Of a stretch of DNA of 37,769 bases, positions 5,050 to 34,305 are shown piece after piece. The notes under the pieces were generated by a model, which was given only the letters and a program-made list of their open reading frames with translations, had not been told where the DNA came from and made no database searches. A program made the position numbers and the translations under genes. Origin of the DNA: a virus; IMG/VR virus record IMGVR_UViG_3300047440_000409, positions 1 through 37,769 of that record. One strand, 5' to 3'. Numbering within the stretch: position 1 is the stretch's first letter; every line of letters begins with the position of its first letter.

Positions 5050-5523
5050 GTGAAGCCGACCAGCGACAACAGCGAGGAGAACGCGCCGCCGTGGCTGCGC
5101 ATCGCGCGTGCCGAGCTCGGGCAGAAGGAGATCGCCGGGCCGGCCGCGAACGCGCGCATCGTGCAGTACTTCTCGGCGACGAGACTTGCGCCTCAGGCCG
5201 GCGACGAAACGCCGTGGTGTTCGGCCTTCGCCTGCTGGGTGATGGAGCAGGCCGGCATCCCCTCTCCAGCGCGCGCCAACGCCCGTAGCTGGCTCAGCTG
5301 GGGCAAGGCCCTCACCCGGCCGCGCCTCGGCTGCGTGGTGGTGCTGCAGCGGGGGAACGACCTGTCTCAGGGGCACGTCGCGTTCTGGGTCGGTGCGCAG
5401 AAGGACCGCGTGCTCTTGCTCGGCGGCAACCAGGGCAACGCCGTCAGCGTGAGCGCGTACCCCGTGTTTCGCGTGCTGGGGTATCGGTGGCCGGTGGAGA
5501 CGCAGGCGCCGCTGGTGGCGTAG
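5050..5523 (+). CDS. Endolysin, TIGR02594/CHAP-like cysteine peptidase
   Basis: This 157-residue protein matches the TIGR02594 family of phage peptidoglycan hydrolases, which share the NlpC/P60-CHAP papain-like fold. The expected catalytic residues are visible: Cys57 in TPWCSAFACWVM, His109 in SQGHVAFWVG and Asn127 in LLGGNQGN. The SARSWL-like stretch typical of the family is present as ANARSWLSWG. No signal peptide or separate cell-wall-binding domain is present, so release depends on the holin encoded upstream. The start is GTG, two bases after the previous stop. It is the last + strand gene of the late region. Confidence 0.85.
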   Translation: MKPTSDNSEENAPPWLRIARAELGQKEIAGPAANARIVQYFSATRLAPQAGDETPWCSAFACWVMEQAGIPSPARANARSWLSWGKALTRPRLGCVVVLQRGNDLSQGHVAFWVGAQKDRVLLLGGNQGNAVSVSAYPVFRVLGYRWPVETQAPLVA

Positions 5524-5627
5524 AGGCTTGGCGGCCGCCGTGTACTTTGGCGACTCTTACCTGTGTCACGGGCAGCGACTGGCCAAGCGGGGCGAGTCTA
5601 GCTGAGTGGCGGGCGCTGCGGCCATGC

Positions 5628-5948
5628 TCACGCGCCCTCGTCGAGAAAGTGCTTGAGCAGCTGCTCGCGGAAGTCCGTGCGGGCCATCCATGGCCCGAGC
5701 AAGCGGTGCAGCTTCTGTCCGATGTAGCGGGCTTTGCCAGGGGGCGCCTTGGCGTCGTCCGCGTTCTCGACGTAGTCGACGCCCTGCGCGAGCGCGGCTG
5801 CGCAGAGGTCTGCGTACGCGCTCATCAGCGCCGCAAAGATCTGAAACTCGTGAGCGTCGACCTTCAGCGCCATGTGATAGACGGCCACCTGCGCGGCCCG
5901 CATCATGGCGATCTCGCTCTCGATGGCCGCGTGCCGCTCGGGTGTCAT
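5628..5948 (-). CDS. Hypothetical helical protein, last gene of the tRNA-proximal operon
   Basis: This 106-residue protein is mostly helical, with no signal peptide, membrane helix or metal motif. I took the internal ATG (MTPERHAAIESEIAMM) because the upstream in-frame extension is a Gly/Arg-rich shadow. It converges with the endolysin gene across a 104-base gap that holds a GGCGGCCGCC palindrome (5530-5539) but no clear terminator. The function is unknown; the location between lysis genes and tRNA/integrase is a classic site for cargo expressed from the prophage. Confidence 0.55.
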   Translation of the reverse strand: MTPERHAAIESEIAMMRAAQVAVYHMALKVDAHEFQIFAALMSAYADLCAAALAQGVDYVENADDAKAPPGKARYIGQKLHRLLGPWMARTDFREQLLKHFLDEGA

Positions 5949-6839: not shown

Positions 6840-6914
6840 TGGAGCCCGCGATCCGGGTTGAACGGACGACCTGCGCATTACGAATGCGCTGCTCTACCAC
6901 TGAGCTACACGGGC
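6840..6914 (-). tRNA. tRNA-Thr (anticodon CGU)
   Basis: The minus strand folds as a complete cloverleaf. The acceptor stem is GCCCGTG/CGCGGGC with one G-T pair, and the D stem is GCTC/GAGC. The anticodon stem is GCGCA/TGCGC with loop TTCGTAA, and the T stem is GTCCG/CGGAT with loop TTCAACC. The discriminator base is T and CCA is encoded. The anticodon CGT reads ACG, a common threonine codon in high-GC genomes. The gene lies 240 bases from the integrase stop. It is either the integration target or a phage-carried tRNA. Confidence 0.93.
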
Positions 6915-7153: not shown

Positions 7154-8374
7154 TTACTTTCGCTTCTTCGCGGCGAGCTCTTTGAGCGCAACGCGGCTTT
7201 CCTCGACCGCCTTCATACTGGCTATCCCAAGGCCCACCATGTAGCGGCGCACGGTGCTCAGGTCGGCGTGCCCGAGGAAGCTCGCGACCTCTTCTGGACT
7301 CCAGCGCCGGCCGCCCGTGTAGAGGTCGCTGCCAAGCAGGAGGTGCGTCGCGGCGGTGTGACGCAGCGAGTAGAGCGGCACGTGCCGGCGGATGCCTGCG
7401 CGCACGCGGTAGCCCTCGTACTTCTTGCCAGGCTGGGGCTCGGAGTCGGCCCAGCCCCAGTCGTAACCTTTGGCGTGCGGCCTCCCCTTCGGGTGTTCGT
7501 AGTTCTTCGGGCCGAGGAACACCAAGCCGGCCACGGGCTGCCCGCAAGCCATCCACCAGGTTCGGATCGCCTCGAGTGCAATAGGGAGCAGGCTTGCCAC
7601 GTAGTTGCGGTGTTTCTTATGCGTGCGGAACCGGACAAGCGCGGCACGCACGTCGACCCGGTCCCAGGTCAGCAGGTACAGGTCCTTGGGCCGTGCGCCC
7701 GTGAAGGCCAGCAAGGTGAACGCCGCCTTCTGTGCGGGCGGCAGGTCCGCCTCGATGAGCTTCTTGACCTCGTCCTCGCGGAGGAAGTCGAACATCTCGC
7801 CTACCGCGCTGGTGTGTGGCGTCGCGATGGTGCTCTCGGAGATGGTGATGTTCTTGGCCGCGTTCGTGTCGACGTGTCCCTGGATCACGGCCCAACGGAG
7901 CGCGCTGCGCAGGAGGTTGAGCGCGTTCTGGAGCGTCGAACGCGAGGGCCGCTTGCCCTTGCTCTTGCCGTCTGCGATGTCCGTGCGGGCCATCAGGTCG
8001 ACCCAGCGGCGCACGGTCATCTCACTGACCTGTGTGAGCGGCCAGTCGATAAACTCCGCCGACTCCACGCGGGCGGCCCAGCGTGACTTGTCGGTCACGA
8101 GCCGGTGGGCCGGAAGCGCATCGAGGTAGAGATGTCCTAGCCGGCGCAGCGTGAGGACGCCGATGTCGGCGGGGACGTAGTGTCCGGCGTCGGCCCGGCG
8201 CACTGCGTGCAGCGCCAGCATCGCCTCCGCCTTGCCCTTGCTCTCGAAGCTTCCGACCTGCTTTTGGCGCTCGCCTGGGGCGCCGCGGACAAGCACGTCG
8301 AAGCGTTGGGACCCATCTCGTAGGGTCCGCGTCCTGATGGACCCTGCACCGTGCCGTCTCTTGGTACTACTCAA
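7154..8374 (-). CDS. int: Tyrosine recombinase / phage integrase
   Basis: This 406-residue integrase catalyses site-specific insertion of the phage into the host chromosome. The N-terminus has an arm-binding-like region, residues about 75-175 a SAM-like core-binding domain, and 195-385 the catalytic domain. Visible active-site positions are Arg228 (FTGARPKDLYLL), Arg338 in YSLRHTAATHLL, His369 in FLGHADLSTV and nucleophile Tyr378 (RRYM). The position usually occupied by the first His of the HxxR box is Tyr335, a known variant. The start is TTG overlapping the upstream stop, with GGAGGA 5 bases before it. It is the last gene of the long leftward operon, as in lambda-like layouts. Confidence 0.93.
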   Translation of the reverse strand: MSSTKRRHGAGSIRTRTLRDGSQRFDVLVRGAPGERQKQVGSFESKGKAEAMLALHAVRRADAGHYVPADIGVLTLRRLGHLYLDALPAHRLVTDKSRWAARVESAEFIDWPLTQVSEMTVRRWVDLMARTDIADGKSKGKRPSRSTLQNALNLLRSALRWAVIQGHVDTNAAKNITISESTIATPHTSAVGEMFDFLREDEVKKLIEADLPPAQKAAFTLLAFTGARPKDLYLLTWDRVDVRAALVRFRTHKKHRNYVASLLPIALEAIRTWWMACGQPVAGLVFLGPKNYEHPKGRPHAKGYDWGWADSEPQPGKKYEGYRVRAGIRRHVPLYSLRHTAATHLLLGSDLYTGGRRWSPEEVASFLGHADLSTVRRYMVGLGIASMKAVEESRVALKELAAKKRK

Positions 8375-15639: not shown

Positions 15640-16127
15640 ACGCCCTCCCGCACGGGGCCGAAGCTGAGCGGCACGAACAGGTAGGTCGCGCCGCGCTCCG
15701 GGTCGTAGTCGTCGGTGGTCTGCACGGCCTGCACGGGCGCACCGCAGTAGCGGCCGTCGCGATGGGGCTGCACCAGGTAGACCTGGTCTTCGCCATACGC
15801 GCCGTAGTGGTAGGGCTCGTAGACGACTTCGAGCACGTCGACCTGGTCTGCACGGAGCGTCAGGTCCGGGCGCGTCAGGTCCTCTGACTGTTCCGTGTCC
15901 ACGATGGACTGCAGCAGACTGCGCGCGTGCCACTCCTCGCCGTGCCAGCTGCAGTCATGGCGGCGGCACGACTCGAGCGTGTCCAGCGCCTCGGCGACTT
16001 CCTCGAGGCTGGCGGCGCGCACGCGCTTCTCGTCGCCGTCGATGGCGTCGGTCGCGAGCTGGCAGATGGGGGCGCTGGCGCAGGCGAAGGCGCACCACTC
16101 CATTGCGCATGGAGAGTGCCAGGTCAT
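15636..16127 (-). CDS. Hypothetical early protein, Cys-rich N-terminus
   Basis: This 163-residue protein begins MTWHSPCAMEWCAFACASAP and has six cysteines within the first 60 residues. A helical stretch (ASLEEVAEALDTLESC) and a beta-rich C-terminal half with many Tyr and Asp follow. The N-terminal Cys cluster could bind metal. It is the second gene after the leftward early promoter, so it is made early in infection. Unknown function. Confidence 0.55.
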   Translation of the reverse strand: MTWHSPCAMEWCAFACASAPICQLATDAIDGDEKRVRAASLEEVAEALDTLESCRRHDCSWHGEEWHARSLLQSIVDTEQSEDLTRPDLTLRADQVDVLEVVYEPYHYGAYGEDQVYLVQPHRDGRYCGAPVQAVQTTDDYDPERGATYLFVPLSFGPVREGV

Positions 16128-16675
16128 GCGCGGCTCCTTCGCGTGCCGCGTGCAATCTGGGAGACCGTCGTCTGGTGCATGTCACAGCACACCGCGACCT
16201 CGCGTTGCGACATGCCGAGCGACAGCAGTCGGCGTACCTCGCGAACGTCGCCGTCCGTGTGACGCGCGTGGCCGTTCCGCTCTCCGGTGTTTCCTCGGCC
16301 ATTCGCGATCGCATCGCGAATGTTCGCACTCCGCGTGTCCGCGCTGAGGTGCGCCGGGTTCACGCACCGACGGTAAGAAATGTCTCGCGGCTTGCGGTAC
16401 CGCTCGCAGCTGTGGCAGACGTCGAGTCCTGCCGGGATGGGGCCCTTGTGCATCGCGAACGATGATCGGTGAGCCAATTTCTCATCGCTGAAGCTGAAGC
16501 ATCCGTAGCCGCTGTTGTTCACGGCGCCGAGCCACATCCAGCAGCCGAACTCGTTGTCCTCGGTCTTACTCCGGAACAGATCGAGCACGGCCTGAGTCGC
16601 CACGCGCCGCGAGCATTTGCGCAACGCGCTGAGCACAGGGCGTTGGTGCGGTGGAGGGGGTACAACCTGAGTCAT
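16124..16675 (-). CDS. HNH endonuclease with C-terminal helix-turn-helix
   Basis: This 183-residue protein has an HNH_3-type nuclease core: GCWMWLGAVNNSGYGCF, LAHRSSFAMHKGPIP, VCHSC (His88) and CVNPAHL (His109). A C-terminal helix-turn-helix follows (MSQREVAVCCDMHQTTVSQI), the arrangement found in free-standing homing endonucleases. A TTG 36 bases upstream is in frame, but ATG 16675 is preferred because the likely promoter overlaps the longer version. As the first gene of the leftward operon it is expressed early. It could be a selfish homing nuclease or have been recruited for phage DNA metabolism. Confidence 0.82.
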   Translation of the reverse strand: MTQVVPPPPHQRPVLSALRKCSRRVATQAVLDLFRSKTEDNEFGCWMWLGAVNNSGYGCFSFSDEKLAHRSSFAMHKGPIPAGLDVCHSCERYRKPRDISYRRCVNPAHLSADTRSANIRDAIANGRGNTGERNGHARHTDGDVREVRRLLSLGMSQREVAVCCDMHQTTVSQIARGTRRSRA

Positions 16676-16683
16676 TCGACAAG

Positions 16684-16711
16684 CGTATACGGAAACCGTA
16701 TGCGCCGACAA
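16684..16711 (-). promoter_or_regulatory. Leftward early promoter with operator O1
   Basis: A perfect palindrome, ATACGG-AAA-CCGTAT (16687-16701), sits between TTGTCG (-35 candidate, 16706-16711) and TATACG (-10 candidate, 16684-16689) with a 16-base spacer on the minus strand. It matches two sites in the repressor-Cro gap. A repressor bound here would block the whole recombination-integrase operon. The predicted start point falls about one base before the HNH ATG. Confidence 0.65.
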
Positions 16712-17117: not shown

Positions 17118-17732
17118 TCACCTGTAGCGAGGCTGCCTCTGCGGAGTGGACTTGTGAGGAGGCTTCGCACGCTTCTTTTTGAAGTCTTCGCTCTTTGCTT
17201 CCACTGGTTCGTACGCTTTTTCGAGCTGTTTCTCGACGCGCTTGGCCAGCTCTCGGTTCTCCGCAAGCTCCTCTGCATACCTGGACGGCTTGAGCTTATT
17301 GCGGAGCAGGAACAGGTAGGTCTCGTAGAAGTTAGCGTCGGGCTCGAGATTGATGGGAGGCAAGGTGTCCCTGAGATTGGTCATCTCCAACTCAGTGATG
17401 TCCTTGGGAGCAATGGGACTGTTGAGAAACTCTTCGAGCGCCTCGGCGCATCGGTCGCGATGAATCGTCATCTCCGATTGCTTGTCGAGGTGTCCCTTGG
17501 GTAGCCCAAGCACCCGCTCGACCTCGCGACGATTGCGCGCCGCCACGGCCGTCTTTCCGTTGAAGGCTCCCTTGCCGCTGCACCAGTCAGAGACGGTTGC
17601 CTGGCGGATGCCCATCTTGCGCGCGAGCTTTGCTTTATCGAGCCCCAGCCGTTCGAGCTCTACCTCGAGGTATTGCCCCGGAGTCAGAATCATCTCGGCG
17701 TAGTCTGCGGGCCGCACGTACACCACGTCCAT
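17118..17732 (-). CDS. CI-like phage repressor (XRE helix-turn-helix)
   Basis: This 204-residue protein has an N-terminal helix-turn-helix at about residues 18-60 (LDKAKLARKMGIRQATVSDW) of the Cro/CI/HigA type. The remaining 140 residues are helical, with a long charged coiled coil and a basic tail. There is no LexA-like peptidase domain (no AG cleavage site, Ser or Lys catalytic motif), so RecA-stimulated self-cleavage is unlikely. The gene lies divergent to a Cro-like gene with matching operators in the gap. The ATG directly abuts operator O2 and lacks a ribosome site, as with a leaderless message. Confidence 0.8.
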   Translation of the reverse strand: MDVVYVRPADYAEMILTPGQYLEVELERLGLDKAKLARKMGIRQATVSDWCSGKGAFNGKTAVAARNRREVERVLGLPKGHLDKQSEMTIHRDRCAEALEEFLNSPIAPKDITELEMTNLRDTLPPINLEPDANFYETYLFLLRNKLKPSRYAEELAENRELAKRVEKQLEKAYEPVEAKSEDFKKKRAKPPHKSTPQRQPRYR

Positions 17733-23714: not shown

Positions 23715-23978
23715 ATGTTGCGGCTCGACTTGCTCGCGCTCGACCTCACGCGCCGTCGCAGTTCGCGACCGCTGCGCGCTGTTGCGTTGGAGATCGGCAT
23801 CAGCGCCGCAACACTCCTCCGCATCGAGAGCGGCAAGGGGCCTGACCTCGAGAGCTTTGCCAAGCTCTGCCGCTGGCTCGGTACCAACCCGAATCGATAT
23901 CTCGGGTTGACGGTGTCGTTCAACAGGACGGAGAAGGCGTTTCTCGGCGCGATCGAGCGCTACGTGGGGTCGCCATGA
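23715..23978 (+). CDS. XRE-family helix-turn-helix regulator
   Basis: This 87-residue protein has HTH_3 features: LRAVALEIGISAATLLRIES, GKGPDLESFAKLCRWLG and a short C-terminal extension. It starts two bases after the previous stop. As the last regulator before the late region, it is a candidate activator of the late promoter just downstream. Confidence 0.72.
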   Translation: MLRLDLLALDLTRRRSSRPLRAVALEIGISAATLLRIESGKGPDLESFAKLCRWLGTNPNRYLGLTVSFNRTEKAFLGAIERYVGSP

Positions 23979-24340: not shown

Positions 24341-24499
24341 GGGCGCCAGCGGGCGCACAGGGGCGGCGCGAAGGCCGCGCGAGGCGATCCCCCCTCCAAC
24401 AGTGCTGGGGGTCCCAAGGCCGGGGGGCCACGCGCGCAAACTTCAGTTAAGTTTTCGTCAATTTTTTTGGCACCCTAGTAAAGTCGAGTAAAAGTTGCC
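24341..24499. other. Intergenic region before the late operon
   Basis: A GC-rich first half holds several overlapping short inverted repeats: GCGCC-AGCG-GGCGC near 24343-24356, CCCCC facing GGGGG near 24390-24417, and a GGCCGGGGGGCC block. They may end early transcription. The last 60 bases are a sharp AT-rich island with the late promoter candidate. No gene seen. Confidence 0.5.
24467..24494 (+). promoter_or_regulatory. Late promoter candidate
   Basis: TTGGCA (24467-24472, 5 of 6 matches to the -35 consensus) and TAAAAG (24489-24494, 4 of 6) are separated by 16 bases, within the only strongly AT-rich stretch of the region. It also carries AGTAAAG-TCG-AGTAAAAG, a direct repeat that may bind an activator. 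The start point would fall near 24501, right at the first codon of the terminase small subunit gene. Confidence 0.55.
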
Positions 24500-25162
24500 G
24501 TGAAAACGATGCCACACGCGCGCGCGTCTACCGTCGCGACTGAGCCGTCCACCGCGTCTACAGCGGTTACGCCTGTAGATCCGCTCGCGTGCGTCCCGCG
24601 CACCGAGGGCCAGCGGCTCTTGCAGCACGTGCCTGGCACGCTCAACGCCATCGCGGCCAAGGTCCAAGCGAGCAAGCCGGCGGTCTCCACGTGGCGCATC
24701 GGCACGCGCACACCTGACATCAGCGCACGTCGACGCCTGTGGGCCGCGTTCGAGATCCCGATCGAGGCGTGGGAGTGCGTGCCGGGCGCGCTCGAGCCCG
24801 CTGCCGAACTCGACGGCGACCAGGGCGACGAGGACGAGGAAGCCGACGAGGACGACAGCGCCCATCACGAGCAGTCGATCCTCGACCACGTCAACCACCG
24901 GCTGCGGGCCGCGCGCAGGGTGGTGGTTGCGAAGGGACTCACCACCCGTGAGCGCATCCTGGCAAACGCCGACTACGACCGGGCCATCGCAGCGCGCGCC
25001 AAGTACCTACACGAGCAAGAGCTGCAAGAAGACCGCATCATCCGCCAGCACCCCAAGTGGCGCGAGCTCAGGGCGGTCATCATCGGCGTGCTGGTCAAAC
25101 ACCCTGCCGTGGCACGCGAAGTGGAGGCGGCGGTCAAGGCAAGCCTCGGAGACGACGAGTAA
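24500..25162 (+). CDS. terS: Terminase small subunit (putative)
   Basis: This 220-residue protein precedes the large terminase by 14 bases. Residues 38-92 form an HTH-type DNA-binding domain (LLQHVPGTLNAIAAKVQASK, then TWRIGTRTPDISARRRL). An acidic linker (105-125) and a helical region follow, where an oligomerisation coiled coil is expected. Small terminases recognise the packaging site and feed the large subunit. The start is GTG 24500 or ATG 24509; the promoter position favours the latter. Identity rests on position and architecture, since small terminases are poorly conserved. Confidence 0.7.
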   Translation: MKTMPHARASTVATEPSTASTAVTPVDPLACVPRTEGQRLLQHVPGTLNAIAAKVQASKPAVSTWRIGTRTPDISARRRLWAAFEIPIEAWECVPGALEPAAELDGDQGDEDEEADEDDSAHHEQSILDHVNHRLRAARRVVVAKGLTTRERILANADYDRAIAARAKYLHEQELQEDRIIRQHPKWRELRAVIIGVLVKHPAVAREVEAAVKASLGDDE

Positions 25163-25176
25163 GAAAGGGGCGCGCT

Positions 25177-26880
25177 TTGGGCACATCGACGATCGCGCAC
25201 GAGGTCAGCACGCGCCGCGTGGGGCGCCCACGCAAGGACGCGTCGCCGGCCCCGGTCGTGCTCACCTTTATGGGCGACTTCCTCGCGTCGCTCTCGCCCG
25301 CCATCCACGCCGCCAGCGGCATCCGCTTCCCCAGCCCGCACTATCAGGCCGACCCGGTGGCATTCGGGCGCGAGATCCTCGGCGTCGACTTCTGGAGCCG
25401 TCAGATCGAGATCTTGGAGGCTGTACGCGATCACCCGCGCGTCGCGGTGCGGTCCGGCCACAAGATCGGCAAGAGCTTCGCCGCGGCGGCGCTGGCCCTC
25501 TGGTACTACTGCTCGTACGAGTTCGCCCGTGTGGTGATGAGCTCGACCACGGCGCGGCAGGTCGATGAGATCCTGTGGCGCGAGGTGCGCATGACGCACG
25601 CGCGCTCCGGCCGCTGTCTCGAGTGCAAGCACGCCATGGAGCAGGCGCGCGCACGTGGCGACCGCCTTGACGTGCCGCGGCCATGTCCGCACTCGAGCCT
25701 GATTGACGGCGACCTCGGTGACACGGCACGCACCGGCTTCAAGAGCGCCGACTTTCGCGAGATCGTCGGCTTCACGGCGTCCCAGGCCGAGGCGGTGGCC
25801 GGCATCAGCGGGCAGAACGTCCTGTACATCGTGGACGAGGCGTCGGGCGTCAACGAGTTCGTGTTCGAGGCCATCGAGGGCAACCGCGCCGGCAAGGCCA
25901 AGCTCGTGCTGTTCTCGAACCCCACGCAAAACCAGGGCACCTTTTACGACGCGTTCAACAGCAAGGCGCGCTTTTGGAAGACGATCACCGTGTCGAGCGA
26001 GGACACGCCGAACGCCATCGCCGGCCACACCGTCGTGCCTGGGCTTGCCGAGCGCGAGTGGATCGATGAGAAGCGCGAGGAGTGGGGCGAGAAGTCGCCG
26101 CTGTTCATCGTGCGTGTCAAGGGCCAGCACGCCGAGTACGAAGAAGGGAAGATCTTCAGCGTGCACGAGATCGCGCAGTCCGTGGCGCGGCGGAGTGAGA
26201 CGCCGGCGGAGGGGCGCCTCTACATCGGCGTCGACCCGGCCGGTGAGAAGGGCACCGGCGACGAGGCCGCGTTCTGTTGCCGTCGCGGTCTCAAGCAGCT
26301 CGAGTTCGAAATCCCGCGTGTCGGGCTCACCGAGGACGGGCACTTGACCACGGTGCTTGTGCTCATCGAGCGCCACAAGCTGCCGCGCGAGACGCCTGTG
26401 GTGGTGGTCGACCGGGACGGCTCCATCGGCAGCAAGGTCTACAACGCGCTCCGGGGCTATGCCGAGCACAACCCCGGCTCGTTCGAGATCGTCGGCGTGC
26501 GCGGGTCGGACAAGTCGCAACGCCAGCCGCTCGTCTACCACCTGATGCGCGAGGCGCTCACGGCGAGTCTAAGCGCGTGGTTTCTGGCCGGCGGCGCCAT
26601 TGTCGACGATGCCAAGCTGGAAAAGGAGCTCCACGTGATGGAGTGGCGCCAGCGGCCCGACGGTCGGATGAAGGTCACCGACAAGTTGACCCTGCGCAAA
26701 GTCCTCGGCCGCTCGCCCGACCGCTACGACGCGCTGGCGCTCTCGACCTGGGAGCCGCTGTCCCTGCGCGAAGAGTCGGCCGCCTCGGACACCATCACCC
26801 GCGCGCGCGAGCAGCGGACGCCCTACGATCGCGGTCCCATGGATCCGTACGCCGGCGCGCGTGCCTGGGAGCGGCGGTAG
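25177..26880 (+). CDS. terL: Terminase large subunit
   Basis: This 567-residue DNA-packaging motor starts at TTG with AGAAAGGGG 6 bases before. The ATPase domain has Walker A SGHKIGKSF (93-101), Walker B VLYIVDEAS (215-223) and the coupling motif LFSNPTQ (246-252). The nuclease domain begins with Asp353 in YIGVDPAGEKGTGDEAAF and has a second acidic stretch, VVVVDRDGSIG. An insertion in the ATPase domain carries C147-x2-C150 and C170-x-H172, a possible zinc site. The protein pumps DNA into the prohead and cuts it. The longer in-frame start overlaps the small subunit gene and is rejected. Confidence 0.93.
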   Translation: MGTSTIAHEVSTRRVGRPRKDASPAPVVLTFMGDFLASLSPAIHAASGIRFPSPHYQADPVAFGREILGVDFWSRQIEILEAVRDHPRVAVRSGHKIGKSFAAAALALWYYCSYEFARVVMSSTTARQVDEILWREVRMTHARSGRCLECKHAMEQARARGDRLDVPRPCPHSSLIDGDLGDTARTGFKSADFREIVGFTASQAEAVAGISGQNVLYIVDEASGVNEFVFEAIEGNRAGKAKLVLFSNPTQNQGTFYDAFNSKARFWKTITVSSEDTPNAIAGHTVVPGLAEREWIDEKREEWGEKSPLFIVRVKGQHAEYEEGKIFSVHEIAQSVARRSETPAEGRLYIGVDPAGEKGTGDEAAFCCRRGLKQLEFEIPRVGLTEDGHLTTVLVLIERHKLPRETPVVVVDRDGSIGSKVYNALRGYAEHNPGSFEIVGVRGSDKSQRQPLVYHLMREALTASLSAWFLAGGAIVDDAKLEKELHVMEWRQRPDGRMKVTDKLTLRKVLGRSPDRYDALALSTWEPLSLREESAASDTITRAREQRTPYDRGPMDPYAGARAWERR

Positions 26881-26883
26881 CTC

Positions 26884-27099
26884 GTGACACGCGGGCGACG
26901 GCAGCTGATCGCGCTCCTGCAGCACGTCCCGGCGCGTGAGGTGGCGGTCCGTGTGCACGTCACGAAGTCCTGTGTTTCTCGATGGCTATCGGGCTCGCGC
27001 ATCCCGTGCGAGCGGGCGCGTATCCTGCTCGAGGCGCACTTGCGGATCCCGGTGGAGGCGTGGCGCGTCTACCTTTCGCGGTTCGATAGACGCCCCTAG
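26884..27099 (+). CDS. HTH protein paralogous to the terminase small subunit N-domain
   Basis: This 71-residue protein starts at GTG. Residues 9-60 align with residues 39-91 of the small terminase: both have LLQHVP, then VS or VST before W, G-x-R-x-P, and IPVEAW or IPIEAW. Only the DNA-binding domain is kept. It is probably a free DNA-binding copy that may regulate packaging initiation or compete for the pac site. It lies between large terminase and portal, where no such gene is usual. Confidence 0.7.
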   Translation: MTRGRRQLIALLQHVPAREVAVRVHVTKSCVSRWLSGSRIPCERARILLEAHLRIPVEAWRVYLSRFDRRP

Positions 27100-27133: not shown

Positions 27134-28513
27134 ATGGCCAGAATGGGCTTGCGTCAAACACTCGCGCGTGCGGCGGCCTCGCTGATCGGGCTCAGCGCGT
27201 ACGAAGTGCAGCCCAGCGCGTTCTCCGGCGCCACGATCTCCGAGGCGGACGAGGAGAGGTATCGCAAGCTCTACGGCGGGCAGCTGCAACGGCAAGAGAC
27301 GTCGACCACGCGCTGGTACATGAGCGACCTCGAGGTGTGCGAGACGGCCGCCGACCAGGGGCTTTTGAAGCCGGCGGCGAAGCTCATGCGGGCGGCGCTA
27401 CGTGACGGCGTGATCAGCGGCGTGCTCTCGACGCGCACCAGCGGGCTCGTCCGCTTGCCCAAGACGTTCCGTGGTGATGCCGAGGCGATCAGCGCCTTGG
27501 AACTCGGACACGACAGCACGCGCGCCGTGTTCGATGAGATCTTCCCCCCGTCGGAGCTCGCCGCGTTCGCTGCAGACGGCGAGCTGCTCGGCGTCGGCAT
27601 CGGCAAGCTCGTGCCCGTGTCGGGCCGGGACTATCCCGTGTTTGTCCGGCTGGATCCCGTTTTCCTCGTGTACCGCTGGCAAGAGAATCGGTGGTACTTC
27701 GAGGGCATCGCCGGGCTGGTCCCAATCACCCCGGGAGACGGCGTCTGGATCCTGCACACGCCCGGCGGTCGCAACGCGCCCTGGCAGCATGGTCTGTGGC
27801 GCAGCATCGGGCGGGCGTACATTCGCAAAGAACACGCCGCGCTCCACAAAGACAACTGGGAGGCGAAGCTCGCCAACCCCGCACGCGTCGCCGTGGCATC
27901 CACCGGCGCGAGCGAAGAGGAGCGGCAGGGCTTCTTCTCCCAGTTGCTTGCGTGGGGCATCAACACCGTGTTCTCGCTCCCGCCCGGCTGGGACGTGAAG
28001 ATCGTGGAGAGCAACGGCCGCGGACACGATTCGTTCAGCACCACGATCCAGGAGCAGAACACCGAGATCACAATCTGCATCGCGGGCCAGACGGTCACGA
28101 CGGACGGCGGCACAGGCTTCGCGAACGCGGATATTCACAAGAGCATTCGCGCCGACTTGATCAAGGCCACGGCGGACAGTCTCGCCTACACAATCAACAC
28201 ACAGGGCCTGCCCGCCTTCATCGTCGCGCGCTGGGGCGAGGACGCGCTGGCGACCAAGTCCGTGGTGGTCGCGTGGGACGTCACGCCGCCCAAGGATCGC
28301 AGCGCCGAGGCGCAGAGTCTGCTCACGGTCGCCACGGCGATCACGGCGCTCACCGACGCGCTGAGCCGACACCAGCGCGAGCTGGACGTGGGCGCGCTCG
28401 CCGCTCGGTTCGGCATCCCCATCCTGAACGACGCCAACGGCGACGGCGAGCCTGACGTGGTGCGCGAGTCGTCCGACGACTCGACCGTCACACCGATTCG
28501 GAGGGCCGCTTGA
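27134..28513 (+). CDS. Portal protein (DUF935/Mu gp29-like)
   Basis: This portal of about 459 residues matches the DUF935-type family. Features seen are SDLEVCETAADQGLLKPA, a long stem region with LANPARVAVAS and the block SFSTTIQEQNTEITICIAGQ, where the Gln-rich helix is typical. The portal forms the dodecameric ring through which DNA enters and to which the tail attaches. A GTG at 27110 is also in frame; I prefer ATG 27134 (MARMGLRQTL) because of its basic amphipathic start. No ribosome site is clear for either. Confidence 0.78.
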   Translation: MARMGLRQTLARAAASLIGLSAYEVQPSAFSGATISEADEERYRKLYGGQLQRQETSTTRWYMSDLEVCETAADQGLLKPAAKLMRAALRDGVISGVLSTRTSGLVRLPKTFRGDAEAISALELGHDSTRAVFDEIFPPSELAAFAADGELLGVGIGKLVPVSGRDYPVFVRLDPVFLVYRWQENRWYFEGIAGLVPITPGDGVWILHTPGGRNAPWQHGLWRSIGRAYIRKEHAALHKDNWEAKLANPARVAVASTGASEEERQGFFSQLLAWGINTVFSLPPGWDVKIVESNGRGHDSFSTTIQEQNTEITICIAGQTVTTDGGTGFANADIHKSIRADLIKATADSLAYTINTQGLPAFIVARWGEDALATKSVVVAWDVTPPKDRSAEAQSLLTVATAITALTDALSRHQRELDVGALAARFGIPILNDANGDGEPDVVRESSDDSTVTPIRRAA

Positions 28514-32856: not shown

Positions 32857-34305
32857 ATGTCCCAACCTGCAGTCACTATCACCGAGCTGGACGGCGCGCT
32901 CGGCGTGCTCCCCGCGAGTGCGGGCAAGCTGCTCGCCATCGTCGGGTCCGCTTCGAGCGGCCCCAAGAATCAACCGGCCACCTTTGCGCGCACGAGGGAC
33001 GTGGCCGCCACGTTCGGGAGCGGGCCCCTGGTCGAGGCCGCTTGCCACGCGCTCGAGGTCTACGGTCGACCGGTCGTGATCGTCCGGACCAATGACACCA
33101 CGGCGGGCGCGCCGGGTACGCCTGTCATCACCGGCGTGACCGGGACGAGCATCATCACGGTGACTGGCGTTCCCGACGATGACTACGAGCTCGTGTTCAA
33201 GGTCATCAACGGCGGTACGAAAGGCACGGCTGGCATCACGTTCGTGTACTCGCTCGACGGCGGCCGGACGTGGTCGCCGTTGACGGCGCTCGGCATCGCC
33301 GCGTCGTACCCGATTCCCGGGGCGGGCTCGCTCGCCATCGCGTTCGGCGCCGGGACGCTGGTCGCCGGCGACATCGCGACCAGCCGCACCACGCCGCCGC
33401 AGTGGAACACGTCCGACCTTGGCCTGGCCCTGGACGCGCTCGCGAGCTCGTCTGTCAACTGGGAGCTGGTGGAAATCGTCGGCGCCATCGACGCCACCGC
33501 GTTCGATCTGCTCGAGGTCAAGATCGCGGCACTCCACGCAGCGGGCAAGGAGCGCGCTTGGATCGGCAGCGCGCGCGTCCCGAACGCGGGCGAGTCCGAG
33601 GCCACCTACCGCGCCGCGCTCAACACAATCTTCGACTCGAAAGCTACCTTGCGCGGCCAGCTGTGCGCCGGTGCGTGCAAGCTCATCTCGAGCGTGTCTG
33701 GCCGAAAGTACAGGCGGCCAATCGTGCTGACTGTGGCAGCCGTCGAGGCGTCGCAGAGTGAAGAAGTCAACGCGGCGGACGTCACGCTCGGCGGGCTCAT
33801 CGGCGTGTCGATTCGCGACGTCAACGGCAACCCGGACGAACACGACGAGTCGATCAACCCCGGTCTCGATGATGCGCGCTTCACGGTCCTGCGCACCTGG
33901 GAGGGCGAGTCGGGCGTGTACATCAACCGGCCACGCATCTTCTCGCCGGGCGGCTCGGACTACCAGCTGCTCGCCCATCGGCGCGTCATGAACCTCGGCC
34001 ATGCCGCGCTTCAAAGCTACTTCCGGCGCCGGCTCAATAAGCCCGTCCTGGTGAGTGCCGCGACCGGGTTCATCCTCGAGGAGGAAGCGCTCGAGATCGA
34101 GGCCGGTGCGCGCGAGGCCATGCGCGCGCTGATCATGGCCAAGCCCAAGGCCTCGGCCGTGACGTTCGCGCTGTCGCGGGTCGACAACTTGCTCTCGACC
34201 AAGACGCTCACCGGCGACGCGCGGATCATCCCGCTGGCGTACAACGAGTTTATCAACCTGACTGTCGGGTTTCTCAACCCGGCGCTCCAAGTGCAGGCGG
34301 TCTAA
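32857..34305 (+). CDS. Tail sheath protein (DUF2586-like)
   Basis: This 482-residue protein has the architecture of contractile-tail sheath proteins. The N-terminal strand (VTITELDGALGVLPAS) can swap between subunits. An Ig-like insertion of strands lies at about 85-200, and the C-terminal core has ESGVYINRPRIFSPGGSDYQ and LLAHRRVMNLGHAAL. AAAGGAG lies six bases before the ATG. The sheath contracts to drive the tube through the envelope, so the phage is a myovirus. Confidence 0.85.
   Translation: MSQPAVTITELDGALGVLPASAGKLLAIVGSASSGPKNQPATFARTRDVAATFGSGPLVEAACHALEVYGRPVVIVRTNDTTAGAPGTPVITGVTGTSIITVTGVPDDDYELVFKVINGGTKGTAGITFVYSLDGGRTWSPLTALGIAASYPIPGAGSLAIAFGAGTLVAGDIATSRTTPPQWNTSDLGLALDALASSSVNWELVEIVGAIDATAFDLLEVKIAALHAAGKERAWIGSARVPNAGESEATYRAALNTIFDSKATLRGQLCAGACKLISSVSGRKYRRPIVLTVAAVEASQSEEVNAADVTLGGLIGVSIRDVNGNPDEHDESINPGLDDARFTVLRTWEGESGVYINRPRIFSPGGSDYQLLAHRRVMNLGHAALQSYFRRRLNKPVLVSAATGFILEEEALEIEAGAREAMRALIMAKPKASAVTFALSRVDNLLSTKTLTGDARIIPLAYNEFINLTVGFLNPALQVQAV

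Follow-up and report, generated by a model that had tools for sequence, protein, structure and literature searches.

Two related helix-turn-helix genes flank the large terminase gene beside a predicted cos site

How small terminases read cos sites in a sequence-specific manner is described as unresolved in the available part of a review of these proteins (PMC9611059). The phage record analysed here, a stretch of 37,769 bp (IMG/VR record IMGVR_UViG_3300047440_000409, hereafter the window), raises a related question: what is the role of a small stand-alone helix-turn-helix (HTH) protein that resembles the HTH of a probable small terminase and is encoded on the other side of the large terminase gene? 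A phage group that encodes the reading domain a second time, alone and beside the motor, would provide a natural dissection of cos reading. Our literature search found no publication describing small-terminase DNA-binding domains in a pair, or a stand-alone gene of this kind.

Two related HTH domains around the large terminase gene

The locus lies on the plus strand. P0001 (HTH-long), a probable small terminase of 220 aa, occupies positions 24500..25162, from a GTG at 24500 to a stop codon at 25160–25162, and consists of an N-terminal Cro/C1-type HTH, an acidic linker and a helical C-terminal region. The large terminase gene, TerL, follows at 25177..26880 (Pfam Terminase_6N, 22.1 bits with a cut-off of 22; phrog_2, E 2.1e-25). 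P0002 (HTH-short), a stand-alone HTH of 71 aa, begins with a GTG at 26884, 3 nt past the TerL stop, and runs to 27099 (26884..27099, stop codon 27097–27099). Directly downstream is a Mu-type portal protein (27134..28513; Pfam Portal_Mu, E 1.3e-37). The gene order is fixed: cos, in some relatives a phrog_4102-like gene, HTH-long, TerL, HTH-short and portal.

An earlier note, made from the sequence alone, had placed both small open reading frames at these coordinates, where we found them, and had proposed that they share a DNA-binding domain. By pairwise BLASTP the two proteins are identical at 27 of 62 positions (44%; 43.5 bits, E 2e-11), and when all 37,769 bp were searched in six frames P0002 matched itself and P0001 alone (E 2.3e-9). 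Sequence and profile comparison place the HTH that P0001 has in common with P0002 at 24602..24778 (+). All the motifs singled out in the earlier note are present, namely LLQHVP in both proteins, VSTW/VSRW, GTRTP/GSRIP and IPIEAW/IPVEAW. Their spacing, said to be the same, is identical from VSxW onward but differs before it, with 16 versus 14 residues from LLQHVP to VSxW. Nor is LLQHVP constant: in the relative L004 it reads LLQLVP in the P0001 counterpart and LLQHVS in the P0002 counterpart, so that its exact identity in the window is, as far as these sequences indicate, partly accident.

Profile methods gave the same picture. A comparison of 14 P0002-type with 16 P0001-type proteins aligned 62 columns with an E-value of 1.1e-17. 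Against the stand-alone profile, built from 14 P0002-type proteins and containing no P0001-type sequence, the HTH of P0001 scored 40.1 bits over query positions 10–62. The best HTH across 101 bacterial genomes, which we took as the background maximum, reached 30.8 bits (at E 0.01, 31 of the 101 genomes gave a match), and no PDB chain scored above 19.7 bits. The window's pair is therefore more alike than random HTH domains, and the resemblance noted earlier is borne out. Among relatives the cross-score varies: 12 of 19 P0001-type HTHs (20 records) exceeded 30.8 bits and seven did not, while the larger survey placed 40 of 80 records above it. Two XRE-type HTH genes of the window (23715–23978 and 17118–17732) did not match the stand-alone profile, and a third, at 16139–16213, did so weakly. 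This weak match falls within a protein encoded at 16127–16711 (−), which combines an HNH_3-like segment with an HTH_3-like one at its C-terminus. Two related HTHs thus flank TerL, and the second copy lacks the linker and the C-terminal helical part, as had been suggested.

A predicted cos site and a probable small terminase

The packaging site was located from the ends of related contigs and from sequence conservation. Genome termini were read from assembled contigs, of which 34 of 79 start 21–210 bp before the first packaging gene, against 0.4 expected for random ends in 40 kb. YCGG is found at offset 12–16, mostly at exactly 14, in 21 of these 34 left ends, compared with 6.7% of random windows. 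The left-end register starts right after GGGGGGC in records that read through the site; the window has TCAG, not YCGG. Right ends fall 19–22 nt after ACAGT in nine of 11 contigs of at least 40 kb whose right ends were read (G127, G128, G129, G146, G147, G148, G149, G150 and G151), the others being G018 and G001. Such a right end was not seen in seven shorter contigs, which are not expected to reach the genome end. These contig ends are the probable mark of a cos site, with unique, sequence-fixed termini adjoining the terminase genes. Assembly ends at the motif in L092 and L090 were also considered as genome ends and rejected: those loci had merely been trimmed (the motif lies at 27548 and 30588 in the records), and the genome-end claim rests on other contigs. 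The two ends of G001 (L094 start, L095 end) carry similar, non-identical 40-nt stretches after the cos motif, reflecting either a tandem repeat or a strain mixture.

Upstream of P0001, a 48-bp block at 24381..24428 (+) is 100% identical by blastn between the window and the relative L005; the adjacent P0001-type proteins are 32–33% identical. This block forms the core of the predicted cos, which the contig ends of relatives place at 24399..24428 (+), with a probable site overall of 24380–24445. For the window we predict a right end near 24419 (..CAAGG) and a left end at 24429, which would leave a 9-nt cohesive overhang between them (24420–24428, CCGGGGGGC) of inferred length and polarity. Across relatives, the distance from right to left contig ends suggests an overhang of 9–10 nt.

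A scan of IMG/VR with the pattern ACAGTNNNGGGGNNNNCAAGGCCGNNGGG returned eight contigs, three known and five new, and a P0001-type gene with the core upstream of it is present in each of the new ones. Loosening the pattern raised the number to 13 contigs; among the five added to the original eight, L112 is the only one with a P0001-type gene. A relaxed core (CCC, ACAGT, GGG) precedes the first packaging gene in 14 records and is absent from the 545 kb of plus strand searched downstream. These 14 comprise 12 of the 21 records that lack the phrog_4102-type gene and have more than 260 bp upstream, together with L147 and L156, which have the gene; among records with more than 260 bp upstream, no relaxed core was present in nine of 21 without the gene and 18 of 19 with it. 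Between the predicted cos and P0001, GTAAA repeats occur nine times against 0.08 expected, which local AT-richness can explain.

P0001 is the first gene after the predicted cos in the window, and the location of the site supports its assignment as a small terminase. Its AlphaFold2 model (mean pLDDT 82) predicts an HTH at residues 36–92, a low-confidence linker and four C-terminal helices within 127–216, an arrangement consistent with the N-terminal HTH followed by a helical core seen in small terminases. The small terminase subunits treated in the available part of PMC9611059 likewise have an N-terminal HTH, a linker and a helical core and are encoded next to TerL and cos. P0001 differs from them in that none of the family profiles searched names it a terminase. 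One of 16 P0001 relatives matched phrog_57 (E 0.0028). Fold searches with P0001 matched its HTH part and repressor-like proteins, with no terminase ring among the hits and none at E 0.001, and searches of named phages with P0001, one P0001 counterpart and two P0002 counterparts gave nothing at E 0.01. The adjoining predicted cos, the modelled HTH and the helical C-terminus nevertheless support the earlier assignment, and P0001 is probably the small terminase.

A further protein has to be accounted for. Of the 80 contigs that have a P0001-type gene, 26 encode a protein from a different family ahead of it, and the one member tested (L013, 5002–5454) matched phrog_4102, 'terminase small subunit', at E 1.4e-12. 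With this gene lying between cos and the P0001-type gene, these 26 contigs have three small packaging-module proteins. The site and the phrog_4102-type gene at first appeared mutually exclusive, an artefact of a search limited to about 600 bp upstream of the P0001-type gene. In L147 and L156, sites of the same type in fact lie upstream of the phrog_4102-type gene, and six records with this gene have one at their right ends. Since the site type is the same with and without this gene, the P0001 family is, by inference, the better candidate for a constant cos reader. An insertion in the recognition helix of P0001-type proteins, present in six of seven records without the strict motif and none of nine with it, may be a lead and is treated only as such; 'without' here refers to the strict pattern, and both relatedness and the phrog_4102-type gene confound the contrast.

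An old companion of the large terminase

TerL relatives were gathered from viral contigs and via a DNA pattern, giving a survey of 85 contigs that leaves out three extra partial loci (L094, L096 and L098). A P0001-type gene was seen in 80 of them, the other five loci beginning too near TerL; in L019 it is located elsewhere in the record. In 79 of 85 the interval between TerL and portal holds a P0002-type gene, a count that includes L179/L093, whose copy is at the opposite end of the record (L098). When TerL was clustered at 95% identity, the gene was present in 62 of 68 clusters. It is absent from six contigs (L017, L133, L160, L164, L174 and L191), where the TerL–portal gap is 68–124 bp in five and 1.5 kb in L191, so packaging can probably do without it. 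Beyond this group, no P0002-type gene was found in the available loci of 66 distant TerL relatives (L021–L086, 24–33% identity over the best segment), nor in those of L087 and L088, the only two distant relatives recovered by a TerL scan of genome contigs, both from bacterial genomes.

P0002-type proteins have a median length of 74.5 aa, a median pI of 11.3 and a net charge of +8 (n=78); P0002 itself has a pI of 11.7 and a net charge of +10. In 57 of 78 cases their start codon and the TerL stop overlap; in 12 the start follows within 30 nt and in nine it lies elsewhere, with the proviso that starts were chosen by script as those nearest the TerL stop, which leans towards overlap. Comparison of the window with L004 gave dN/dS values of 0.27 for P0002, 0.32 for P0001 and 0.09 for TerL (values against L005 were near saturation and set aside), which indicates that P0002 is under purifying selection. 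The gene is kept in 23 of the 26 records with a phrog_4102-type gene (the exceptions are L160, L164 and L174) and in all 12 records with the site close to the P0001 counterpart. Judged by this distribution, P0002 is neither a recent copy nor the passenger of one site variant; its near-universality, its coupling to TerL and its retention alongside the phrog_4102-type gene mark it as an old, fixed part of the module.

Whether the two HTHs arose by duplication is a separate matter. In a tree of 38 HTHs, 17 of 18 P0001-type rows cluster together (92/91), to the exclusion of the stand-alone rows. The three outgroups sit on long branches among the stand-alone rows, so a single duplication is not proven. 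Recent duplication was ruled out, given the presence of the gene in 79 of 85 relatives and the finding that a P0001-type and a P0002-type HTH from one genome resemble each other no more than two from different genomes do (30.2% versus 29.7%, permutation p 0.27, 12 records). The recognition helices of the two groups also differ. Both HTHs could instead be independent recruitments of a common phage HTH subclass, their resemblance then saying nothing of shared function; this account concerns ancestry and is compatible with any of the functional readings below. A Nitratiruptor phage protein encoded beside a LexA-type repressor is 39% identical to P0002 over 49 residues and is placed inside the tree, which fits independent recruitment, as do the seven of 19 relatives that fail to exceed the background maximum. 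Set against this, no HTH in 101 bacterial genomes equals the window's score and the profile–profile match spans the whole domain of 62 columns, and we consider this origin rather unlikely.

Candidate roles for the stand-alone protein

AlphaFold2 models P0002 as a five-helix HTH (pLDDT 88). The top Foldseek neighbours of the model are XRE-type; the structural neighbours include P22 c2, HigA, SinR and YdaS, with a best E-value of 6.9e-3 and none at E 0.001. The model and its neighbours point to a predicted Cro/C1-type fold, and family scores stay under the curated Pfam cut-offs (HTH_23, 18.6 bits against 24.6; HTH_31, 18.2 against 27). Having no oligomerisation core or TerL-contact region in its 71 residues, P0002 is an HTH only, and for this reason we do not file it as a small terminase.

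Our preferred reading, held tentatively, is that P0002 is a conserved, basic, TerL-coupled, putative DNA-binding accessory of cos packaging. In its favour are a similarity to P0001 that exceeds background HTHs, the conserved place behind TerL with overlapping codons, the basic character, purifying selection, the HTH model, the predicted cos just upstream of the operon and the longer version of the gene in L018. Weighing against it are the six contigs that lack the gene, the regulator-like neighbours of the protein, the tree in which a single duplication is not proven, and a recognition helix that does not track the strict cos motif after control for relatedness. It is placed ahead of its main rival, in which P0002 is a small Cro-like regulator that represses or tunes transcription or translation of its own late packaging and head operon. 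That alternative is a possible one: the named fold and profile neighbours of P0002, from solved structures and families, are mostly transcriptional regulators or antitoxins of the Cro/C1, HigA and YdaS types, the protein is very basic and stands alone, and several relatives have an inverted repeat in the gap that separates this gene from portal. The repeat is near perfect, with arms of 13–14 bp, in L010 (3531–3600, about 14 bp) and L012 (2030–2100), where it could be an operator or a translational hairpin, and is shorter in the window. However, no operator conserved across relatives was seen in this gap, and P0002 differs from the known Cro/C1-type regulators in lying inside the packaging operon, directly behind TerL and in most relatives with overlapping codons.

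The earlier note had suggested that the stand-alone copy might be a natural competitor at the packaging site or an evolving second initiator, and our results do not support either. Competition with P0001 that limits initiation would be a domestic version of Rpp, the protein of Gram-negative phage-inducible chromosomal islands. According to the available part of PMC6739421, Rpp acts with the packaging machinery of the helper phage, mimics the DNA-binding part of TerS, forms a heterocomplex with it and switches cos specificity. P0002, too, is a separate small protein with a TerS-like DNA-binding part, in its case without a TerL-contact region. Yet Rpp, as described there, is encoded by a satellite, redirects packaging and has a dimerisation domain, whereas P0002 is phage-encoded and nothing more than an HTH. 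Its gene persists in 79 of 85 relatives, is coupled to TerL in 57 of 78, and has been retained in 23 of the 26 records that also have the phrog_4102-type gene. Its HTHs form a separate group with different recognition helices, own pairs are no closer than foreign ones (p 0.27), and the recognition helix of P0002-type proteins does not track the strict cos motif (partial r 0.02, p 0.33; 16 records, controlled for how closely the TerLs are related and for the remainder of the domain). We regard competition as improbable. Lambda gpW, the product of a small gene between large terminase and portal, is about the size of P0002, and position and length alone would suit a head-joining or virion protein; P0002 has no gpW-type family match and is modelled as an HTH, which makes this role highly implausible.

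As a terminase accessory, P0002 would be made together with TerL and would act at or beside cos, on a half-site of its own or alongside the HTHs of P0001, where it would help the cutting complex to assemble or to find its position. As it lacks an oligomerisation part, the ring and the motor contacts would come from P0001. A more specific and distinctly speculative version is that cos is read by a pair of paralogous HTH proteins whose genes flank the motor gene. P0001 would supply the oligomer and the TerL contact and P0002 DNA contact only, and the two would combine as a mixed assembly of HTHs on a cos that is asymmetric (an ACAGT side and a CCGG side). If true, two-HTH reading of cos would amount to a resident and cooperative counterpart of what satellites do to phages with Rpp. 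The predicted cos (24380–24445), and the strict pattern that picks out the terminase module, offer substrates for binding, cutting and co-complex tests.

Three smaller observations were made in passing. One relative, L018, has a 204-aa version of the stand-alone gene (5062–5676) which by eye appears to contain two further HTH-like stretches. In the window, a complete tRNA-Thr (CGT) gene at 6840–6914 (−) lies beside a tyrosine integrase gene at 7154–8374 (−), and is probably the attachment site used by a temperate phage that has a Mu-like portal and capsid. The window also encodes a DUF2586 protein (32857–34305, E 1.7e-24) in the position of a tail sheath.
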